A program made the position numbers and the translations under genes. From contig FJUW01000006.1 in assembly GCA_900074885.1 (NCBI GenBank), positions 870,512 to 934,511 on the forward strand: a DNA stretch of 64,000 bases, written 5' to 3'. This document shows, piece after piece, positions 18,996-64,000 of this stretch. This DNA is from Rhynchosporium graminicola. Taxonomy: Eukaryota; Ascomycota; Leotiomycetes; Helotiales; Ploettnerulaceae. Numbering within the stretch: position 1 is the stretch's first letter; the number at the start of each line of letters is the position of its first letter. The notes beneath the pieces were generated by a model that saw only the letters and a program-made list of their open reading frames with translations, did no database searches and had not been told where the DNA came from.

Positions 18996-21900
18996 ATGTC
19001 TTCTTTTAAGGGAGATAAGCTAGTAAGCCGCTCTGACTATATAGAGTAGCTTAATACGGCTAGCCTCTACTTAGAGGTAAACAGCTATATATCATATATA
19101 AAAAGTACAAAGACTAAGCCTAGCCGAGCTCTCTACTTCAAATCAGAAGAACGTATTAACGCGTAAGGCGAAAAGAGAATAGATTATACTTCTTACTCTC
19201 CGGAGCTAGCGATTAAATACTATAAGAGACTAGCTGATTTTAAGCGTGCAAAAAAGAAGGCTTGAGGCGCTATTAAGTCGATTATATCACTTGAAAACCT
19301 CGATAGATTCAAGGATAAGACTAGCGCAAAAGACCTATAGGAAGCTATTATAGCTACCTACGGTTCTACTAGCCTAGAGGAGATCAGTAGGCATATAAAT
19401 CGTATTATCGATAATACCTACTCCTCTTATAAGAATATAGACGAGTATACTAGCGTAATTCAAGCTAGTTCAGTCTACCTAAAGCAGCTCAAGTATGAGA
19501 TTCTAAAGCCTATACTAGCTAGCTTTATATTTAAAGGTTTACCTAGTTCTTTTGATTCTTTTACTTCTAGGAAGTACGAAGAAATCTCTAATAACCTTTC
19601 TTCTATCGATATAGAAGGTTTAATAAGAGATCTTATATCAGAAGAGGCTAGAATAAATACTTCTACAGATTTAAAAGATAATAAGGCTTTTAAGGGGAAG
19701 AATTCGAAAGGCAGTAAGAAGTATAGTAAATATAATAAAACAAACAATATAGAGGCAAATTACTATATAAAGCACACTGAGCTTATACCTAATAAATCGA
19801 CTAAGAAGAAGCCGAAAGGTAAAGGCGCTAAAGAATCAAAAGAGGAGTCTACTAAGGCCCTTATAAGTTCTTTCAGTAGTACTAGCAGTAGTAGTAGTTA
19901 TAGTAGTACAGCAGATCAAGCTTACGCTACTATATATAACTATAGAATAGTACTCGATTCTAGCGCTTCTGAGTATTATATACCGAATAAAAGCTGGTTA
20001 TTAGACTATAAACCTGTATCTAAGAAGTCTATTACTATCGCTAACGGTGATATTTTACTTATAATAGGTAGAGGAGATATCCTATAATCACTAGGGAAGG
20101 CGATAGAGTACTTATTAAAGACGTAAATTACGTACCTAGCATTAAAACTACTCTCCTAAGCTCTAAGGAACTAACTAATAAAGATTAGAAAGTTACCTTT
20201 AATAAAAAGGGTATAAATATATCTAATAGCTCTATTAATATAGAAGCTAGATAGTATTATAATACGTACTACTTAGAAGTAGACGTAAATCATAAGCTAC
20301 TCGAGCCTATATCTTTTAAGGTAGACTCTAATAAAACTAGCAAATTAGACCTATATTATAAGCGTCTATTGCATACTAATAAGGAGTTTATCTATAAGAC
20401 TATAGAAGGATCTAAAGGATTAAAAATCCAAAAGGGGTTAGATTTATCTAACTGTTTTGCCTGTAATAGCGGTAAAATACACGCTATAAGTAGTACTAAG
20501 CCTATATCGGATACCCCTCCGCTTACTATCTTTGATATAGATATAGCAGGCCCTTTTAAGATTAAAGGTCTAAAGGGAGAAAGATTCTTCTTAACTATTA
20601 TATAGAGGCTCTAGAGCTATTTAGGTATACGCTCTAAAACATAAGGCTAATACGTACGATACCTTGATCGAGTAGTATAATATGATAACTACTTAATTTA
20701 AGCAAGGTGTATTAAAAATCGTCGCTAGAATTAGAGCTTTTAAGCTAGATAACGCCGGGGAGTTTAAATCTAATAAATGGACTATCTTTTATAAAGATAA
20801 AGGTATTATTTGTGAATATACTAGTCCTTACTCTCCTGAGTAAAACGGTATAGCAGAGCGTTTAAATCGATATCTTATAGAAAGGCTTATAGCTATCTGT
20901 ATAGATATGAATATACCCTTATTCCTTTGGCCTCAAATAATCTAAGGAATAGCTTATATAAAGAATCGCTCTTATAATTCGGTTATTAAAAAGAGTCCCT
21001 TTGAAGTTCTCTTCGGTAAAAAGCCTACTCTTAATTATATTAGAGTATTAGGCTCTCTTACTTACGTTCTTATTAATAAAAGGACTAATAAGTTTGAAGT
21101 TAAGTCCGATAGAAGTATACTCGTAGGGTATAAGTCTGCAAATAACTTCTTAGTATATATACCTGAGAAGAGAGCTATTATAAGCTCTAAAAACGTCCTA
21201 ATTAAGGAAGATTTAACCTTTAAGGACAAAGTGATATCTAAGGAAGAATTAGAATCCTTTGATAAGACACTTAACGATTACGAGACCTCTGACTGTTCAA
21301 ATCGCGTGATTTCCTCACCTATAGATACTCCTAAATCAGACCTATCTAGAGCTGAAAACTCGGAGAAAATCGACAGTAAAACAGCTGATAATTCATTAAA
21401 TGAAGAAAAAGTCATAGAAGATACAGAACTTGATCTCTTTAACGATATAGCCGAAGAACCTATAGTAGAAATACCTAAACGAGGTATAAAACGTAGAAGG
21501 GACTACTCTAATTAGGTACCTAATATTACTACTAGAAGTCACGCTAAAGACCCTAATATAGCCTTAGCTATTCAGAATAATAAGCGATTAATTCAAGAGC
21601 AGAAAGAAGCTTATAGCGTATATAAAAACGTTATTAACTTAGCTTACTAAGCTTTTATTAGCTCTAAATCAGACGAAGAAATTAAGCTATCACCTGATCC
21701 GGAAAGAATCCTTATTAAAAAGGATCCGGAAGTAGTTATCTACGAGCCTAAGAGCTATAAAGAAGCTATAAATAGTCCTTATAAGGATTATTAGCTAAAA
21801 GCTATAAATAAAGAAATTGCCTCTCTTGAAAATCATAATACGTGGAAAGTAGTCGATAGTAATACTAAGACTATAAAACTACTAAAAACTCGCTGGGTCT

Positions 21901-23280
21901 ATAAGATCAAAGAACTAGAGAGCGAGTACTACGAATTCAAAGCTAGATTCGTAGCTAAGGGGTTTAAGCAATTATATAGTATAAACTACCTAGATATATA
22001 TGCTAGTGTAGTAAAGCAAATAGCTTAGCGTCTTATATTTGCCTTAGCAGTACTCTATAAGTGGTATATATATAAGATCGATATGATCTCCGCTTTTACA
22101 CAGAGTAATATAGATATTAATACCTTATATATTTACCCCCCGGAAAGCGTAGAGAATTACGCCAATAAACTCCTCCTACTCTGGAAAGCGTTATATAGTC
22201 TTAAGTAATCAGCTAGACTATAGTTTATTACGCTAAAGGAGGTATTAGTTAATAAATTCCGATTTAAGTTAATCTTATCCGAAAATTGCATATTAGTCAA
22301 TAAAGAGCTTAAGATTATAATCTGTATATACGTAGATAATCTAGTTCTAATTAGCCCTAATATAAGTACTATCAAGTCCTTAATTGAAGAATTAAAATAC
22401 TTCTTTAAACTCAAGGACTTAGGGGTAATAAAAGACTATTTAGGTATTGAAATTGACTATAATAGAGATCAGGGCTATATGAAGCTCTATCAAGCTAGCT
22501 ATATAGAGAAGGTACTAGCTCGGTTTGACTTATCAGATTATAAACCGAAGAATACGCCTATGGATTCAAAGGTTAAATTAGAACCTAATCCTAATAAGGC
22601 TACTAAGGAAGATATATCATGGTTTCAGCAAGTAATAGGCTGCTTACAATTCCTTACGCTAGCTACTAGGCCTAATATAAGCTACGCTATAATCGAATTA
22701 GCTAGGTTCTCTAGTAACCCTAGCGATACGCATATCTTAGCTGCAAAGAACGTACTTAGATACCTTAAAGGTTCTATTAAACTAGGCTTAGTTTATATTA
22801 ATAGCTCTAGTAAATACGTTAGCGGATACTGCGATTCTGACTATACCGGAGATATTAGTACGGCTAAGTCCACTAGCGGCTATTCCTTCTATATAGGAAG
22901 CTGCTTATTCTCTTGGAAGTCGAAGTTGCAATCGATTATAGCTCAGTCTACTATAGAAGCTGAATATATAGCTATTAATTCGGCAGTTAAAGAAGCGGTC
23001 TATATAAGATAACTTCTTACCGAATTAGGCTATTACTTCTAAGAGAGGTTCCCGGTGTTTACTGATAATAACAGCGCTTTATTACTCTCTAAAAATCCTT
23101 AATTCCATAAGAGAACTAAGCATATAGCCGTAAAGTACCACTTTATAAGGGACCTAATTAATCAAGGTACTATAGATTTGATCTATATTAGTACTTTGAA
23201 GCAAAAGGCAGACGGGTTTACTAAAGCCCTAGATAGGCCTAAATTTAAGGAGTTTATAAAACACCTTGAACTAGCTTATT
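18996..23280 (+). pseudogene. Copia A gag-pol polyprotein, broken by RIP stops and a frameshift
   Basis: The start is the ATG at 18,996 (MSSFKGDKLVSRSDYIE, then a TAG where Trp is expected). The gag runs to about 19,860 and includes a Ser-rich tract. The protease motif near 19,955 reads LDSSASEYY in place of the usual DSGA. A one-base slip near 20,085 shifts frame. The integrase core (20,530-21,000) shows FDIDIAGPFK, then LDNAGEF, then GIAERLNR. The RT (21,800-22,480) has RWVYKIK, ALYSLK and YVDN in place of YVDD. RNase H (22,830-23,260) has CDSDYTGD, EAEYIAI and TDNNSALLL. Stops sit mainly at Trp or Gln codons. It is not functional as it stands. Confidence 0.8.
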
Positions 23281-23464
23281 AGAGCTAGTAATTCAGATTA
23301 TTATAAGAGAATTAGGTTTATTTAACCTAAGAGGGTAGCTACGAGGTAGCATTTCCATTCCTTATTATATTTCTTTTGTAATAATCTAAGGGTAGTCGAT
23401 TAGTAATTTACCCTATATATAGTTCTGTTTTAAAACTGACTATAAGGCTCTGATTAAGGGGGCG

Positions 23465-23933
23465 TGTTGGATTTATAACTAGTACCTTAGTTAGTTCTGC
23501 CTGCATTAGCATACACACGCTGTACCTTATTAGTATATGGTCTTAGTACCTAGTTCAGTACCTTGCCTATGTACCTTGTTATACCTGGCACCTATACCCT
23601 GTACCTTGTTAACAGCCTATACCCTGTATACTCTATTAGAGTTACTATAAAGGTTCTCGATAGAGTTCTACTACTCTCTAGTACGCATATCGTACTTCTA
23701 GAGGTTTCTACTAACGTACTACTGACGTAGTATGATTCTACGGTATACGTGTCTTCTTCTATAGAGTTCTGTATTACGTAGTATAGAATATTCTAGAGAG
23801 CTCATATAGCTATATAAGTAGCTAGAATCTCTCCTATAGTTAGCTCTCTTTAAGCAAGCAATCAAAGCAAGTCAAATTGATCACTTATTCTCTTATTCTG
23901 ACCTTTGGCCGATTCCCACCCTCAATTTTCACA
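23465..23933 (+). repeat. Copia A copy 1 3' LTR
   Basis: It is 469 bp and matches 17,780-18,248. Differences between the pair are mostly C/T and G/A transitions (for example ttgtaaccag versus ttataactag), consistent with RIP after insertion. Confidence 0.85.
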
Positions 23934-23945
23934 AACCTATTCGTA

Positions 23946-24050
23946 GAGTACGATATAGAAGAACCACTAGATTATTAGTATAAAAGAGATATTGTTAGAT
24001 ACTTAGTAAAATAGAAGAACTATTTATATTCGGAAAATATATAAGAACTT
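23946..24050 (+). pseudogene. Gypsy A chromodomain remnant
   Basis: Directly after the Copia 3' LTR the Gypsy A frame resumes as EYDIEEPLDY, then a stop, YKRDIVRYLVK, a stop and KNYLYSEN. Both stops are TAG; the second falls exactly where the chromodomain YLVKWKNY motif has Trp, so TGG to TAG is the likely change. A C-terminal chromodomain defines the chromovirus branch of Ty3/Gypsy and is thought to guide integration into heterochromatin. The remnant proves that the flanks of the Copia belong to one Gypsy element. Confidence 0.75.
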
Positions 24051-24752
24051 AAGTTAAGCTTTTACTACTTAGTATTACTAGCTAATTTCTATTAATAAAA
24101 CTCAGATCTACTTAGAGCAGGTCTGCAGAGTCGAAAGGAAGGTCGACTATCAGGTCGAACGAGAGGCCGATAAGGATGTTAGAACTAGAAGGTTCCGTAC
24201 TTACTAGTTTAGTATCTTTAGGCGCTCTCTCTCTTTTCTATTTCTCTTTTTCTTCTTTCTCTAAAGCCTTAAGAGTATCGAGCTTAGCTATTAAATTTAA
24301 GCTAGTAGTAATTATCTTTTATTACTTCTTATATAAAAAACGTTTCTATTTCTTTAATCTTATAATCCGTATATAAAACTTAATTACTAATAAGTCTTCC
24401 TTATCTTCTAGTTTCTCGATTTAGGAATCTAAACTCTCTTATTTAGAAGCTATAAGTATCTAGTTCCTTATACGAATATTATAGGATTTATTTAGTCGAG
24501 TATAATAATTATATCTAGTTACTTTAGGATCGCGAGGCGATATATACTCTTTATATTCCGCCTTTTCTCATCTAGTATATAGTATTATAATCTTATTACT
24601 TAATTCTATTTATCTTCCGAGCGTAATATAATCGACTTATTCAGTTAAGCGTTCAAGGGGTATAATAAAAGAAAGAGATAGCCGTAAGTAGTCGTCGATA
24701 TTTCCTTAGGTATACTTAAGCGTAGGGACACGCTAAGACAGAAGGGGGATAG
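24051..24752 (+). other. Gypsy A tail between chromodomain and 3' LTR
   Basis: AT-rich, stop-rich sequence with no further domain. A 66-codon frame at 24,176-24,376 is low-complexity (Ser/Phe-rich) and not considered a gene. It ends in a purine run that serves as the element's polypurine tract. Confidence 0.5.
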
Positions 24753-58349: not shown

Positions 58350-58535
58350 TATTACGAGGATATGGGTCTTAGTATGGATCAGGTGACTATAGTCACGTGC
58401 ATAGTCCGTGCGGATATTCCTAGATAATATCTTCTGTCGACTCTCTATAGTAATTAGTACTGCAATGCAACTAATAATATTCACATGATTACTATCTCTA
58501 TGCTTTACTCTGAAGATCAACGTAACCTTGCGATA
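58350..58535 (+). repeat. Copia B 3' LTR
   Basis: It is 186 bp and matches 52,954-53,139. It begins TATTACGAGG where the 5' copy has TGTTGCGAGG, two G-to-A changes. All other differences seen are also C/T or G/A. Confidence 0.8.
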
Positions 58536-58728
58536 GAATCCTTATTAAAAAGGACCCGGAAGTAGTTATCTACGAGCCTAAGAGCTATAAAGAAGCTATA
58601 AATAGTCCTTATAAGGATTATTAGCTAAAAGCTATGAATAAAGAAATTACCTCTCTTGAAAATCATAATACGTGGAAAGTAGTAGATAGTAATACTAAGA
58701 CTATAAAACTACTAAAAACTCGCTGGGT
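58536..58728 (+). mobile_element. Copia A copy 2, resumed fragment, truncated at telomere repeat
   Basis: It resumes Copia A at gaatccttattaaaaagg and follows copy 1 (21,707-21,899) up to aactcgctgggt. Copy 1 then continues ctataagatc, but here the sequence becomes a TTAGGG tract. The same fragment from 58,555 is repeated at 60,105-60,278. Confidence 0.85.
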
Positions 58729-58746
58729 TAGGGTTTAAGGGTTAGG
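58725..58746 (+). repeat. Degenerate telomere repeat tract (TTAGGG on plus strand)
   Basis: The tract reads gggttagggtttaaggg followed by ttagg, about three and a half TTAGGG-like units with one extra T and A. It lies exactly between Copia A and the LINE 3' end. The duplicate is at 60,275-60,296. Confidence 0.75.
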
Positions 58747-60103
58747 TGATATTGAATCTAACTACGCTATCTTGCTACAGGCGTTTTTCTAACTATAAGG
58801 AAATATAAGCTATAAGTACAAGGGGTGCGCGCTATAAATACAAGTAAGAAGAGTACTAAATAAAAGAGAGATAAAGAAGCCTAGGGTAGGCGATATGTAC
58901 TACGAGTAGTAGATAGATGATCGAAGCCTTTGATAAAAGAGAAGAGGGTGCTCTATAGCGAGAGAGGGTGCCCTGCGGCGTAGGGGGGGGGTGCCCTGTG
59001 ATATAAGGAGGGTGCTCTCTAGCGTAGAAGAGAGAGGAAGGGAGAGGGGGTGCTTCTTTAGTATAGAAGGGGTGCCCTGTGGCGCGGGGTGATATTCGCT
59101 CTAGGGTAGGCGGGGAGTGGATTCTCAGGGTATTTCAGGCTTACTTATATACTATAATTGACGTAGCTGCGATACCTCGTGCCTAGGTAAAAATAGTAGC
59201 AATAAAGCTATCGAGCCATCTTGCTCTGCTAGGGCCTAGCAGGCCCTGTAGAGCCCTATAGGTCTTCGCTATATCCTTTTCCATTAGGCCACTGGCGGAG
59301 ATAATTAGAGGGTGAAATATAGAGCCTAGGTCCTTATATTTCAGTTGTTTCGCGTTTGCAGCCTCTGTAAGCGTAGCGTAGGCTTCCTCGCGTGCTGAAT
59401 CCTTATTAATTACTACTATCTGAACGTCGTAGTAGTGCCTGGAGGTGCCTATAAGTACTGAAAAATCAGGGCGTTTACTATTTTCGGGCTGTCGACTGCC
59501 TATAGTCGCTGGTGTAGGCTCTGATTCGACTTTTAGATCTTCCCGGCTAGAAAGGGTAGTAATAAATGCACGGGTGACCTGATCGTGGCGTATAATCTAT
59601 CGTCTTTGAGCTCCTCTACAGGTGTCTTTATAGCCTATTTCAGGGTAGGCGCTACAGGCAGTACAGGGAGCAATTGGAGGTTTTATAGGGAGTAAGAGCC
59701 TAGTTCGAAGGGCCTCTGTAACTGTAGAATCCGCTAAAAGGTAGTGCTTTTGCGTCGGTAGGGTTCTAAGCTAGTAGTAGCCGAGGTAGCTAGCGTTCTC
59801 TAGCTTTGTCTTTAGGGCTGGTTTCGGTAGCGTAGGTAGTAGACGACTCTCTAGGCCTTGATTTACGCTTTGAAAGATCTCTCGCGCAGTTGAAATAGAG
59901 CGATAAAGCGATTCCGGGTTTATAGAGTAGATTTTAGGGCATATAGCCTCTAGAATCGGCCTACTCGCTTCTTTCGCGGCCCTATATAGCCCTGGCGCTA
60001 ATAGCGCGTGTATCGGGATCCCTAGGCCCCCTTCGCGTACTGGAAGCGCTATAAGTGCCGATCGAACTAAAGCACTCTGATCCCCTGGCTCTCTAGCGAT
60101 TAG
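58747..60103 (-). mobile_element. Telomere-associated LINE, 3' half (duplicate ending at the N)
   Basis: This is the left, partial copy of the element described at 60,297-63,197. It holds the 3' UTR with G-rich repeats and the endonuclease domain (RPDF at 59,462-59,473; CTAC at 59,654-59,665). Its interruption at 60,103 coincides with the single unknown base, so it is probably the same molecule shown twice. Confidence 0.8.
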
Positions 60104-60104
60104 N
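60104..60104. other. Single unknown base (N) at duplication junction
   Basis: It is the only N seen in the window. It separates two perfect 1,549-bp direct copies, the layout expected when two overlapping contigs are abutted rather than merged. Confidence 0.9.
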
Positions 60105-60274
60105 CCCGGAAGTAGTTATCTACGAGCCTAAGAGCTATAAAGAAGCTATAAATAGTCCTTATAAGGATTATTAGCTAAAAGCTATGAATAAAGAAATTAC
60201 CTCTCTTGAAAATCATAATACGTGGAAAGTAGTAGATAGTAATACTAAGACTATAAAACTACTAAAAACTCGCT

Positions 60275-60296
60275 GGGTTAGGGTTTAAGGGTTAGG
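60275..60296 (+). repeat. Degenerate telomere repeat tract, duplicate copy
   Basis: Identical to 58,725-58,746; it marks the 3' boundary of the complete LINE copy. Confidence 0.75.
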
Positions 60297-60479
60297 TGAT
60301 ATTGAATCTAACTACGCTATCTTGCTACAGGCGTTTTTCTAACTATAAGGAAATATAAGCTATAAGTACAAGGGGTGCGCGCTATAAATACAAGTAAGAA
60401 GAGTACTAAATAAAAGAGAGATAAAGAAGCCTAGGGTAGGCGATATGTACTACGAGTAGTAGATAGATGATCGAAGCCT

Positions 60480-60650
60480 TTGATAAAAGAGAAGAGGGTG
60501 CTCTATAGCGAGAGAGGGTGCCCTGCGGCGTAGGGGGGGGGTGCCCTGTGATATAAGGAGGGTGCTCTCTAGCGTAGAAGAGAGAGGAAGGGAGAGGGGG
60601 TGCTTCTTTAGTATAGAAGGGGTGCCCTGTGGCGCGGGGTGATATTCGCT
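60480..60650. repeat. G-rich imperfect tandem repeat in the LINE 3' UTR
   Basis: On the plus strand five to six units of the form (a)ggGTGCYCTnt...gcg recur every 20-40 bases, with G-runs up to nine. The minus-strand RNA would carry C-rich GAGCACCC units. The duplicate lies at 58,930-59,100. Confidence 0.65.
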
Positions 60651-60732
60651 CTAGGGTAGGCGGGGAGTGGATTCTCAGGGTATTTCAGGCTTACTTATAT
60701 ACTATAATTGACGTAGCTGCGATACCTCGTGC

Positions 60733-63156
60733 CTAGGTAAAAATAGTAGCAATAAAGCTATCGAGCCATCTTGCTCTGCTAGGGCCTAGCAGGCCCTGTA
60801 GAGCCCTATAGGTCTTCGCTATATCCTTTTCCATTAGGCCACTGGCGGAGATAATTAGAGGGTGAAATATAGAGCCTAGGTCCTTATATTTCAGTTGTTT
60901 CGCGTTTGCAGCCTCTGTAAGCGTAGCGTAGGCTTCCTCGCGTGCTGAATCCTTATTAATTACTACTATCTGAACGTCGTAGTAGTGCCTGGAGGTGCCT
61001 ATAAGTACTGAAAAATCAGGGCGTTTACTATTTTCGGGCTGTCGACTGCCTATAGTCGCTGGTGTAGGCTCTGATTCGACTTTTAGATCTTCCCGGCTAG
61101 AAAGGGTAGTAATAAATGCACGGGTGACCTGATCGTGGCGTATAATCTATCGTCTTTGAGCTCCTCTACAGGTGTCTTTATAGCCTATTTCAGGGTAGGC
61201 GCTACAGGCAGTACAGGGAGCAATTGGAGGTTTTATAGGGAGTAAGAGCCTAGTTCGAAGGGCCTCTGTAACTGTAGAATCCGCTAAAAGGTAGTGCTTT
61301 TGCGTCGGTAGGGTTCTAAGCTAGTAGTAGCCGAGGTAGCTAGCGTTCTCTAGCTTTGTCTTTAGGGCTGGTTTCGGTAGCGTAGGTAGTAGACGACTCT
61401 CTAGGCCTTGATTTACGCTTTGAAAGATCTCTCGCGCAGTTGAAATAGAGCGATAAAGCGATTCCGGGTTTATAGAGTAGATTTTAGGGCATATAGCCTC
61501 TAGAATCGGCCTACTCGCTTCTTTCGCGGCCCTATATAGCCCTGGCGCTAATAGCGCGTGTATCGGGATCCCTAGGCCCCCTTCGCGTACTGGAAGCGCT
61601 ATAAGTGCCGATCGAACTAAAGCACTCTGATCCCCTGGCTCTCTAGCGATTAGAGCCTGAATAGCGTGGTGAATTTGGCTATCAGCTTGTTTCCAGAGGA
61701 CCTCTAGGCCTTCAGGGTATAGCTAGCGCTGTAGATACCGTAGAAGTAAGTGAATACTCCCTCTGAGTAGTAGTAGAGCGTGTTGTTTCGGAAGCTGCTT
61801 TAGGGTGTCGAGTGCTATAGCGAGTGTAGTTATCTTGCCTCGTAGAAAGGTCCGGCGCGTTTCTATAGGGCCTATATAGGTCCCTAGAGCCTGAAGACCC
61901 TTCGCTTGTAGCTATACGATAGGGTAGTCGGCACTCTTTCGGCGATTTAGGGCTACTAGAGAGTGCTGAAAGGCCTCTGTAACTACAGGGAGTAGCGCTA
62001 TCGAATCCGGACTACAGATATAGATATCATCCAGGTACGCTATAATAGTCGCTCTCGGTAGGGTTTTTTAAAGGTGCTCTAGTATAGGGCGTATCGCTAG
62101 AGAGAAGAGTAATAGAGCGATCGGGTCTCCTTGGCGTACCCCTTCAGCGCTAGCTAGCGTTTAACCCTTATTTGTCACTAGGATCGAAGGCTAATAATAG
62201 GCCTATTTAGCAGTACGATAGAGCGTCAGGGCGTATTTAGCGACCGCGGACGCTATCGCGCAGCGCCCTATACGATTATAGGCGTTAACGAGATCTAGCG
62301 ACGCTATTTGCTGTGTTTTCAGGCGATTTGGGCCTATAATCGCGTCGTCGAGCAGAAAGATTATAGGCTCTACTCCCCCTATAGAGCCTACCCCTAATTG
62401 GTTCGGTAGTAGTATCGAAGGCCTGAAGGAGGTCGCTAGAATCGCTTTCAGAGCTACCTTATAGATTAGGTCCCCTATCGCGATTAGTCGTATGCCGCCA
62501 TCCGGCTTCTATAGGCCTATAAGTCGAGAGGCGCACAGAAGGTCTACGCCTGGAGCGGTACCCTGTCGGATCATATTCGCTAGGTGTGCTAGCGCTTTTA
62601 CTACAGGGGACGTAGGGCCTATATTTACTGCTATATCTAGTAGCGGGCGGGTCTATCTACTGAGTCCACAGGCCTTCTCTCTATCGATCGATCGAATCGC
62701 CTTCTGTATCGCTTCAGGGCTAATATTCTGCCCTAGGGCGGGATTTGCGTTACTAAAGGGGTTCTCGTGCCCTATAGGGTACTTAGAGAGAAGGGTTTTC
62801 AGGGTCTCTAGCGTATCGGGCGCTAGGGGTATAGGGTCTATCAGAGCCCTTGACGCACGCCCTATAAAGCCTTTTTCCAGAAGCTTAATAGCACGCTTTG
62901 CCGCTGAGTCGTTTGATACTACCGGAGGGTCGGTAGACGTTTCAGGGAGTTCAGGGAGCGTAGTAGGGTAGGCTTTTAGTGTTTTAGCGACGTCGTTCTT
63001 CTGTAATCCGACACATAGTACCCTAGGGAGTAGAAGAAAGTCGAGTAGCTGCTTCTCTCTAGGCTGTTTCAGGAAGGCTGTAGCTGCTCTCTGTGCCGCC
63101 TCTGTAAATAGTATAGCCTGCCTAGCGTGTAGTCGTTTTTCAGGGACCTGTATCAC
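60733..63156 (-). pseudogene. LINE polyprotein: reverse transcriptase plus restriction-like endonuclease, about ten in-frame stops
   Basis: The first 167 residues (63,156-62,656) are open and include LLEKGFIGRASRAL and PEAIQKAIRSIDREKA, typical of the region before a LINE RT. In the same frame follow KPDGGIRLI, LDLVNAYNRIGR (motif A; Asp at 62,293-62,295), GVRQGDPIALLLF (62,119-62,133) and AYLDDI (YLDD at 62,026-62,037). The C-terminal part has a CTAC knuckle (61,204-61,215) and RHDQV, then RPDF (61,012-61,023), YYDVQIV and KQLKY (near 60,885), the PD-(D/E)xK pattern of R2/CRE-type endonucleases. The start is uncertain: GTG at 63,156 is the conventional alternative, but the frame stays open to about 63,203, through the telomere-like repeat. 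About ten stops, with no frameshift, show it is inactive in this copy, by RIP or age. Confidence 0.75.
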
Positions 63157-63184
63157 GCTATAGGCTAGTCTTAGGTAGAAAAAC

Positions 63185-63197
63185 GGGTTAGGGTTAG
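63185..63197 (+). repeat. Telomere repeat tract at the LINE 5' edge
   Basis: The tract reads gggttagggttag, two TTAGGG units in the same orientation as the tract at 60,275. It separates the LINE from the distal AT-rich satellite. Confidence 0.75.
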
Positions 63198-63330
63198 AAA
63201 AATATTAAGGTTATAAGGAAAAAAAAAAAAAAAGAAAATTCCTATATTACTCTTTAGTACTTATTTTTCTATATTATAAAAAAAAAAATCAGAATTTATT
63301 AATAAGAGGTACTATTATACTAGTTTTAAT
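63198..63330. other. AT-rich spacer with A-runs
   Basis: It contains two poly(A) runs (about 63,219-63,237 and 63,279-63,288). No Copia A or other known element resumes here. Confidence 0.5.
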
Positions 63331-64000
63331 ATACTTAATAATCTATAATATGATTCCTATAATTGCACTCTCTCGAAAAATCCTAGAATCTATGATATGA
63401 ATCCTGTTATTATACCGTCTCACGAAATTCTGGAACTTATAATATAGATATTATTATTATACTTTCTTAAGAAATTCTAGATCTATAATACAGATCCTGT
63501 TATTATACCCCCTCATAAAATTCTGGAACCTATAATATAGATATTATTATTACACTCTCTTAAGAAATTATAGTATCTATAACATAGATCCTATTATTGC
63601 ACTCCTTTATAAAATTCTGGAACTTATAATACAGATATTATTATTACACTTTCTTAAGAAATTCTAGATCTATAATACAGATCCTATTATTACACCCCCT
63701 CACAGAATTCTGGAACCCATAATATAGATATTATTATTATACTTTCTTAAGAAATTCTAGATCTATAATATAGATCCTATTATTACACCCCCTTATAAAA
63801 TTCTGGAACCTATAATATAGATATTATTATTATACTTTCTTAAGAAATTCTAGATCTATAATATAGATCCTGTTATTACACCCCCTTATAAAATTCTGGA
63901 ACCTATAATATAGATATTATTATTACACTTTCTTATAAAATCTAATAACTTAGACTAGAAATCTGATCATTTTACCCTCTTAGAAAGTTCTAGGACTAAT
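63331..64000. repeat. AT-rich dimeric satellite, 93-94-bp unit of two 46/47-bp monomers
   Basis: The landmark attctggaac recurs at 63,426, 63,520, 63,614, 63,707, 63,800 and 63,893, a spacing of 93-94 bp. Each unit contains two related monomers, one with attctggaacctataata and tcttaagaa, the other with attctagatctataata and cctgttattacac. A more diverged single monomer precedes the array near 63,379. The array decays after about 63,930 but reaches the window edge. Confidence 0.85.

Follow-up and report, generated by a model that had tools for sequence, protein, structure and literature searches.

What does a retrotransposon set between two telomere-like tracts tell about the history of the chromosome that carries it? 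We address this question for a 64,000-nucleotide stretch of the Rhynchosporium graminicola genome (the window, positions 870512-934511 of contig C19; 55.3 Mb in 121 contigs), near the distal end of which there is a minus-strand retrotransposon without long terminal repeats (long interspersed nuclear element, LINE). It combines a reverse transcriptase (RT) with a C-terminal restriction-like endonuclease (RLE) of the PD-(D/E)xK type, the hallmark of restriction enzyme-like (REL) elements, and TTAGGG-like DNA is found at both of its ends. We propose that the window copy derives from a LINE of the MoTeR/FoTeR kind, which carries a REL endonuclease and inserts at telomeres, and that it is now a dead, 5'-truncated and internalised relic, a reading to which we assign a probability of about 0.86.

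Position, polarity and junctions of the LINE copies

Copies across the genome were located by the constant 3' end of the element:

58731 to 58748, and again 60281 to 60298, minus strand: constant LINE 3' terminus CACCTAACCCTTAAACCC, with 35 genome sites at no more than one mismatch

Two of these sites represent the window copy, which is duplicated in the assembly, and the same pattern read backwards has one match in the genome. All 35 termini, spread over 20 contigs, are located less than 62 kb from a contig end (median 5.1 kb; for C95 and C117, whose lengths are not known, the contig start was assumed to be the nearest end), and in all 35 the 3' end faces inward and the 5' end outward. Searching the whole genome at the protein level, with the best candidates only being scored, recovered largely the same copies: 20 of 20 matches are within about 62 kb of a contig end, with no full-length open frame among these 20. 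Neither the 3'-terminus search nor the protein search of the genome detected an internal, non-telomeric copy. At the end of contig C52, the terminal telomere array directly adjoins a copy that is truncated on its 5' side.

It could be argued that repeats accumulate at contig ends as an artefact of assembly, so that proximity to an end is uninformative. Indeed, many contig ends are assembly breaks and only some are proven telomeres, 9 of the 35 sites are less than 500 bp from a contig end, and the window copy itself holds an assembly join. However, copies that lie 13-61 kb away from contig ends are oriented in the same way, and this uniformity refutes artefact as a full explanation; furthermore, the C52 telomere array begins right after the element. 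We find this explanation scarcely credible. Under another explanation, the telomere-like 3' end is merely part of an element that inserts at random into broken or subtelomeric DNA, the internal copies having been lost via repeat-induced point mutation (RIP) and recombination. Such random insertion would be compatible with the telomere-like appearance of the constant end itself and with the variation of the flanks past the short tract, but the inward orientation of every terminus on 20 contigs is not expected from it and speaks strongly against it, as does the variable number of telomeric bases that follow the constant end. We consider it highly improbable.

The loci examined include 32 distinct 3' junctions. 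Past the constant end, these have 0-16 telomeric bases, beyond which the flank differs from copy to copy. The TAA of the telomere repeat starts 27 of the 32; at least 6 telomeric bases are present in 17, and fewer than 12 nt in 30. The telomeric bases end exactly after TAA in 19 of the 32 junctions, against an expectation of 1 in 6 (p 6e-8 assuming independent junctions, which tandem copies are not). Among the bare junctions between telomere and subtelomere, 7 of 8 end after TAA when read by eye (a script counted 4 of 8, missing in-phase ends). Seven flanks have counterparts elsewhere that reach the junction, the comparisons for C46 and C24:14837 having been dropped as they do not reach it. 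Five of the seven overlap the counterpart by 2-4 telomeric bases (copia 4, C2 2, C82 4, C7 2, C24 3), mostly as expected from healing off a short telomere seed. In Pyricularia, new telomeres arose from seeds of 1-4 nt in 19 of 24 cases, according to the relevant section of PMC7367193.

The earlier note had argued for telomere targeting from the flanking tracts and the polarity of this single copy, the 3' end of which points to the proximal side. The window copy has the polarity described, and the 35 inward termini near contig ends, together with the junctions that begin with TAA, provide strong genome-wide support for telomere targeting. The same junctions bear on a different possibility, namely that the LINE heals broken ends directly in a HeT-A-like manner, the RNA 3' end annealing to a GGGT-type end without a prior telomerase-made telomere or cleavage. 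The short or partial telomere tracts are in line with such healing, and so are the flanks that represent truncated copies of sequences found elsewhere, with their overlaps of a few bases. Yet the exact stop after TAA, in the same phase at the bare junctions, suggests that telomerase repeats came first, and relatives have retained the endonuclease motif; in addition, PMC7367193 describes a MoTeR1 insertion that is a single repeat away from the telomere junction. Direct healing therefore appears unlikely.

Given insertion into telomeres, we infer cleavage of telomeric DNA by the endonuclease and priming by the G-rich strand. In such target-primed reverse transcription, the 3'-OH of this strand would prime cDNA synthesis at the chromosome end; the primer could come from RLE nicking or be a natural overhang, and the telomere-like 3' end of the RNA itself might pair with the G strand. 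Because the 3' end of the G strand points toward the chromosome end, the cDNA would extend outward and the LINE 3' end would stay inside, whereas C-strand priming would result in the opposite order of element ends. The uniform inward polarity, the telomere-repeat junctions and the C52 telomere cap support G-strand priming at chromosome ends.

Truncated LINE 3' ends also form head-to-tail runs, specifically L012, L033, L058 (C89), L022 (C85) and L051 (C17), with units of ~190-260 bp, several of which begin at a common point, CTACGCCGCAGGG. In addition, there are composite elements (L036-L041, L043, L045 and L047, on C88, C17, C82, C22, C91 and C24) in which a LINE 3' end of ~0.7-0.9 kb is preceded by DNA of another kind that mostly includes a satellite of TTAGGGTCAGGC-like units. 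A body is common to L036-L041 over 0.7-1.1 kb, with 82-99% identity.

The encoded protein, its decay and its relatives

The features of the element in the window are as follows:

58731 to 63168, minus strand: the LINE as assembled, 5'-truncated, with in-frame stops and with the duplicated stretch included
58555 to 61653: exact 1,549-bp repeat, 58555-60103 recurring at 60105-61653, with the single N at 60104 in between
60733 to 61220, minus strand: RLE region (CxxC..RHD..E..RPD..D..KY), with a duplicate at 59183-59670
61968 to 62511, minus strand: RT domain (RVT_1), with coordinates transferred from the copy on contig C89

The N and the exact repeat most likely reflect an unresolved assembly join, with two overlapping contig ends left unmerged. 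Once the duplicated stretch is discounted, the real element most likely corresponds to 60281-63168 (~2.9 kb), so that the extent of 58725 to 63197 given in the earlier note is 1,550 bp too long.

The RT motifs LDLVNAYNR, QGDP and YLDD were recovered, and the identification in that note of a minus-strand LINE with an RLE-type endonuclease is confirmed. The RLE motifs RHD, E, RPD, D and KQLKY are found at 59183-59596 of the window, and the CxxC/H/C knuckle of the endonuclease is read in relatives. The Pfam RVT_1 profile matches the C89 copy with E 1.7e-11 (read through, with X at stops), but the window piece only with E 0.15; for the RLE pieces, there was no Pfam match. The claim that both domains share one frame is correct with respect to the domains but not to the frame, which is not open: the C19 protein match (931205-933697) contains 9 TAG and 2 TAA. 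This copy is 5'-truncated, beginning at about residue 414 of the 1,244-aa relative P0002. The 5' portion of the copy on C89 is found once in the genome.

The differences between copies are mostly transitions, concentrated at CpA. Among four copies of the 5' piece, variable versus invariant sites number 56 vs 57 at CpA, 28 vs 170 at CpG, 10 vs 174 at CpC and 17 vs 268 at CpT; for five copies of the 3' piece, the respective numbers are 76 vs 30, 33 vs 115, 48 vs 145 and 48 vs 210. This pattern is RIP-like decay, and C-to-T mutation at CpA probably inactivated the LINE.

When a part of the C89 copy is searched with X at stops, three predicted proteins of R. graminicola (Helotiales, Leotiomycetes) match it with 95, 91 and 87% identity over the part searched, in keeping with a genome of Rhynchosporium or a close relative. 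The 95% match, P0002, encoded in the R. graminicola WAI453 assembly, is uninterrupted over RT and RLE in one open reading frame, whereas P0003 and P0004 are without internal segments present in P0002. The same part is 67% identical over 52% to a partial Cadophora protein. The N-terminal region of P0002 contains Cys/His motifs that look zinc-finger-like by eye; no Pfam zinc finger was detected in this protein at E <=1. Another protein, P0005, has the RLE motif and an R2-like structure model.

Named relatives beyond the genus include Fusarium proteins. In the tree, a supported group of 12 rows contains proteins of F. oxysporum and F. commune, with the LINE on a branch beside theirs and the base of the group unresolved; these Fusarium proteins are probably FoTeRs. 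The named matches in a profile search included Filobasidium, Folsomia, dinoflagellate and plant proteins, with no MoTeR1, Cnl1 or SLACS among the named matches. A scan of IMG/VR for relatives gave 102 pattern matches, none of which was confirmed (records near the window genome may be left out).

Flanks of the window copy and a proposed order of events

At the locus itself, the LINE is bordered by four further features:

58532 to 58728, plus strand: Ty1/copia-like pol fragment (..KLLKTRWV), broken at CTCGCTGGGT; the proximal flank of the LINE
58725 to 58730, minus strand: telomeric remnant between copia and the LINE, TAACCC on the minus strand, of which ACCC occurs in intact copia as well
63169 to 63300, minus strand: proximal end of subtelomeric repeat B (..CTAACCCTAACCCGTTTTTCTACCTAAGA), containing the TTAGGG tract at 63185-63197
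63343 to 63941, no strand assigned: AT-rich satellite within repeat B, with a 93-bp period and ~6 copies at 63378-63935; common to other B copies

On the proximal side, GGGTTA(GGG) occupies 58725-58733 and adjoins the fragment that we take to be copia on account of its motif. Up to CTCGCTGGGT, this fragment is 97% identical to positions 21702-21898 of the window, where the sequence then reads CTATAAG; this continuation was not found distal to the LINE, from the window through the contig end. The stretch at 21702-24500 is a longer copia-like element, with related pieces elsewhere in the window.

On the distal side, the TTAGGG-like sequence GGGTTAGGGTTAG at 63185-63197 has the orientation of the proximal tract. 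It was considered as the distal half of a telomere target and rejected, given that the tract lies inside repeat B in other B copies. Hence the earlier observation of TTAGGG at both LINE ends in one orientation holds as far as telomere-like DNA is concerned, but a telomere on both sides fails for the 5' side because this tract belongs to repeat B; what stands of the telomere target at the window copy is the remnant on the 3' side. The proximal end of repeat B, CTAACCCGTTTTTCTACCTAAGA, is found at 16 genome sites on 12 contigs (<=2 mismatches), with all 16 facing inward. Its boundary is sharp, ending CTACCTAAGA against differing DNA, with the 93-bp satellite located distally. A LINE piece adjoins the B end at four of the sites (C19, C85, C24 and C88:611470) and is absent from the other 12. 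Helitron ends follow the rule TC...CTRR between A and T; a Helitron end was set aside for repeat B, the expected base being present by eye in 3 of 16 flanks, with no Helitron protein search made. Contig C19 runs ~12.5 kb past the window and ends in a TTAGGG array, and no further LINE 3' terminus was found in the ~13 kb from C19:933680 to the telomere.

These features would fit a history in which the chromosome broke inside copia at GGGT and the end was healed from this telomere-like seed. The LINE would then have inserted beside the healed end and become shortened on its 5' side; later, the chromosome would have been extended outward by ~13 kb of repeat B and further subtelomeric DNA.

Several points weigh against the relic reading as a whole. 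Neither end of the LINE has two exact TTAGGG units, the exact sequence TTAGGGTTAGGG being absent from the window, and the copy lies 13-18 kb from the telomere, so that the locus alone shows no telomere insertion. Fewer than three telomeric bases are present in 5 of the 32 junctions, and two of the seven flank comparisons lend no support, C22 having no base in common with its counterpart and C47 being unreadable. The position in the clade was compared only with Fusarium, Filobasidium and other relatives found.

We also considered whether two polar elements, the LINE and repeat B, might attach exclusively to the outer side of broken or healed ends and, together with the composite elements, constitute a layered retroelement system that rebuilds lost chromosome ends beside telomerase; this is a speculative and rather improbable extension. 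The relic reading that we favour extends telomere-inserting REL LINEs to Rhynchosporium (Leotiomycetes). Relics that keep their junctions would be a record of past chromosome breaks and repair and, as they mark former chromosome ends, could be used to track end turnover in fungal subtelomeres.

Comparison with known systems

The earlier note suggested that this could be a new family of telomere-specific retroelements. This suggestion does not stand: MoTeR1 (PMC7367193) and FoTeR (PMC12857005) have been described with the same architecture and polarity, and the Rhynchosporium LINE is of the MoTeR/FoTeR kind of telomere-inserting REL LINE known from Fusarium and from the rice blast fungus. No paper on a telomere-inserting LINE in Rhynchosporium was found in the searches made among open-licence papers.

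According to the sections of PMC12857005 concerned, the FoTeRs of Fusarium oxysporum have a single open reading frame with RT, C-terminal REL domain and zinc-finger-like N-terminal Cys/His motifs, the 5' end outward, TAACCC repeats past the 3' end, and truncated, RIP-mutated copies, all as in Rhynchosporium, where the Cys/His motifs are those read by eye in P0002. The differences include the host class, Leotiomycetes in the present case, and the 3'-junction tracts, 0-16 nt here versus 3-8 units in FoTeR (Table 3 of PMC12857005). In the same excerpted account, FoTeR has RAD where the Rhynchosporium LINE has RPD, and FoTeRs are reported at termini only, whereas many Rhynchosporium copies are located 10-61 kb inside contigs.

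The likeness to MoTeR is drawn from published descriptions. In the passages of PMC7367193 and PMC8381367 on Pyricularia oryzae, MoTeR1, MoTeR2 and their relics are REL LINEs in telomeres with inward 3' ends and head-to-tail arrays; the relics, which the window copy resembles, are 5'-truncated and attached to a partial telomere repeat, and ends are healed from 1-4 nt seeds. These passages also describe companion elements with a common end, and the Rhynchosporium composites recall MoTeR2. However, MoTeR2, as described there, has 860 bp of the 5' end and 77 bp of the 3' end in common with its companion, whereas the composites here have ~0.7-0.9 kb of the 3' end in common, behind a different body.

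More distant systems share parts of this organization. The spacing of the RLE motif agrees with the formula published for CRE/SLACS. The predicted fold and order of RT plus RLE are R2-like, with 17-18% identity to the best-ranked R2 chains, but in the tree the LINE is placed separately from the animal rows, and its copies are found at telomere-like junctions near contig ends rather than at the 28S ribosomal DNA target of R2. The Drosophila elements HeT-A, TART and TAHRE likewise have an inward-facing 3' end at chromosome ends. They represent another LINE type with another endonuclease, and TTAGGG telomeres are present in the Rhynchosporium genome, unlike in that system. Some telomeric Penelope-like elements are without an endonuclease; the Rhynchosporium LINE differs from these in the presence of the RLE domain.

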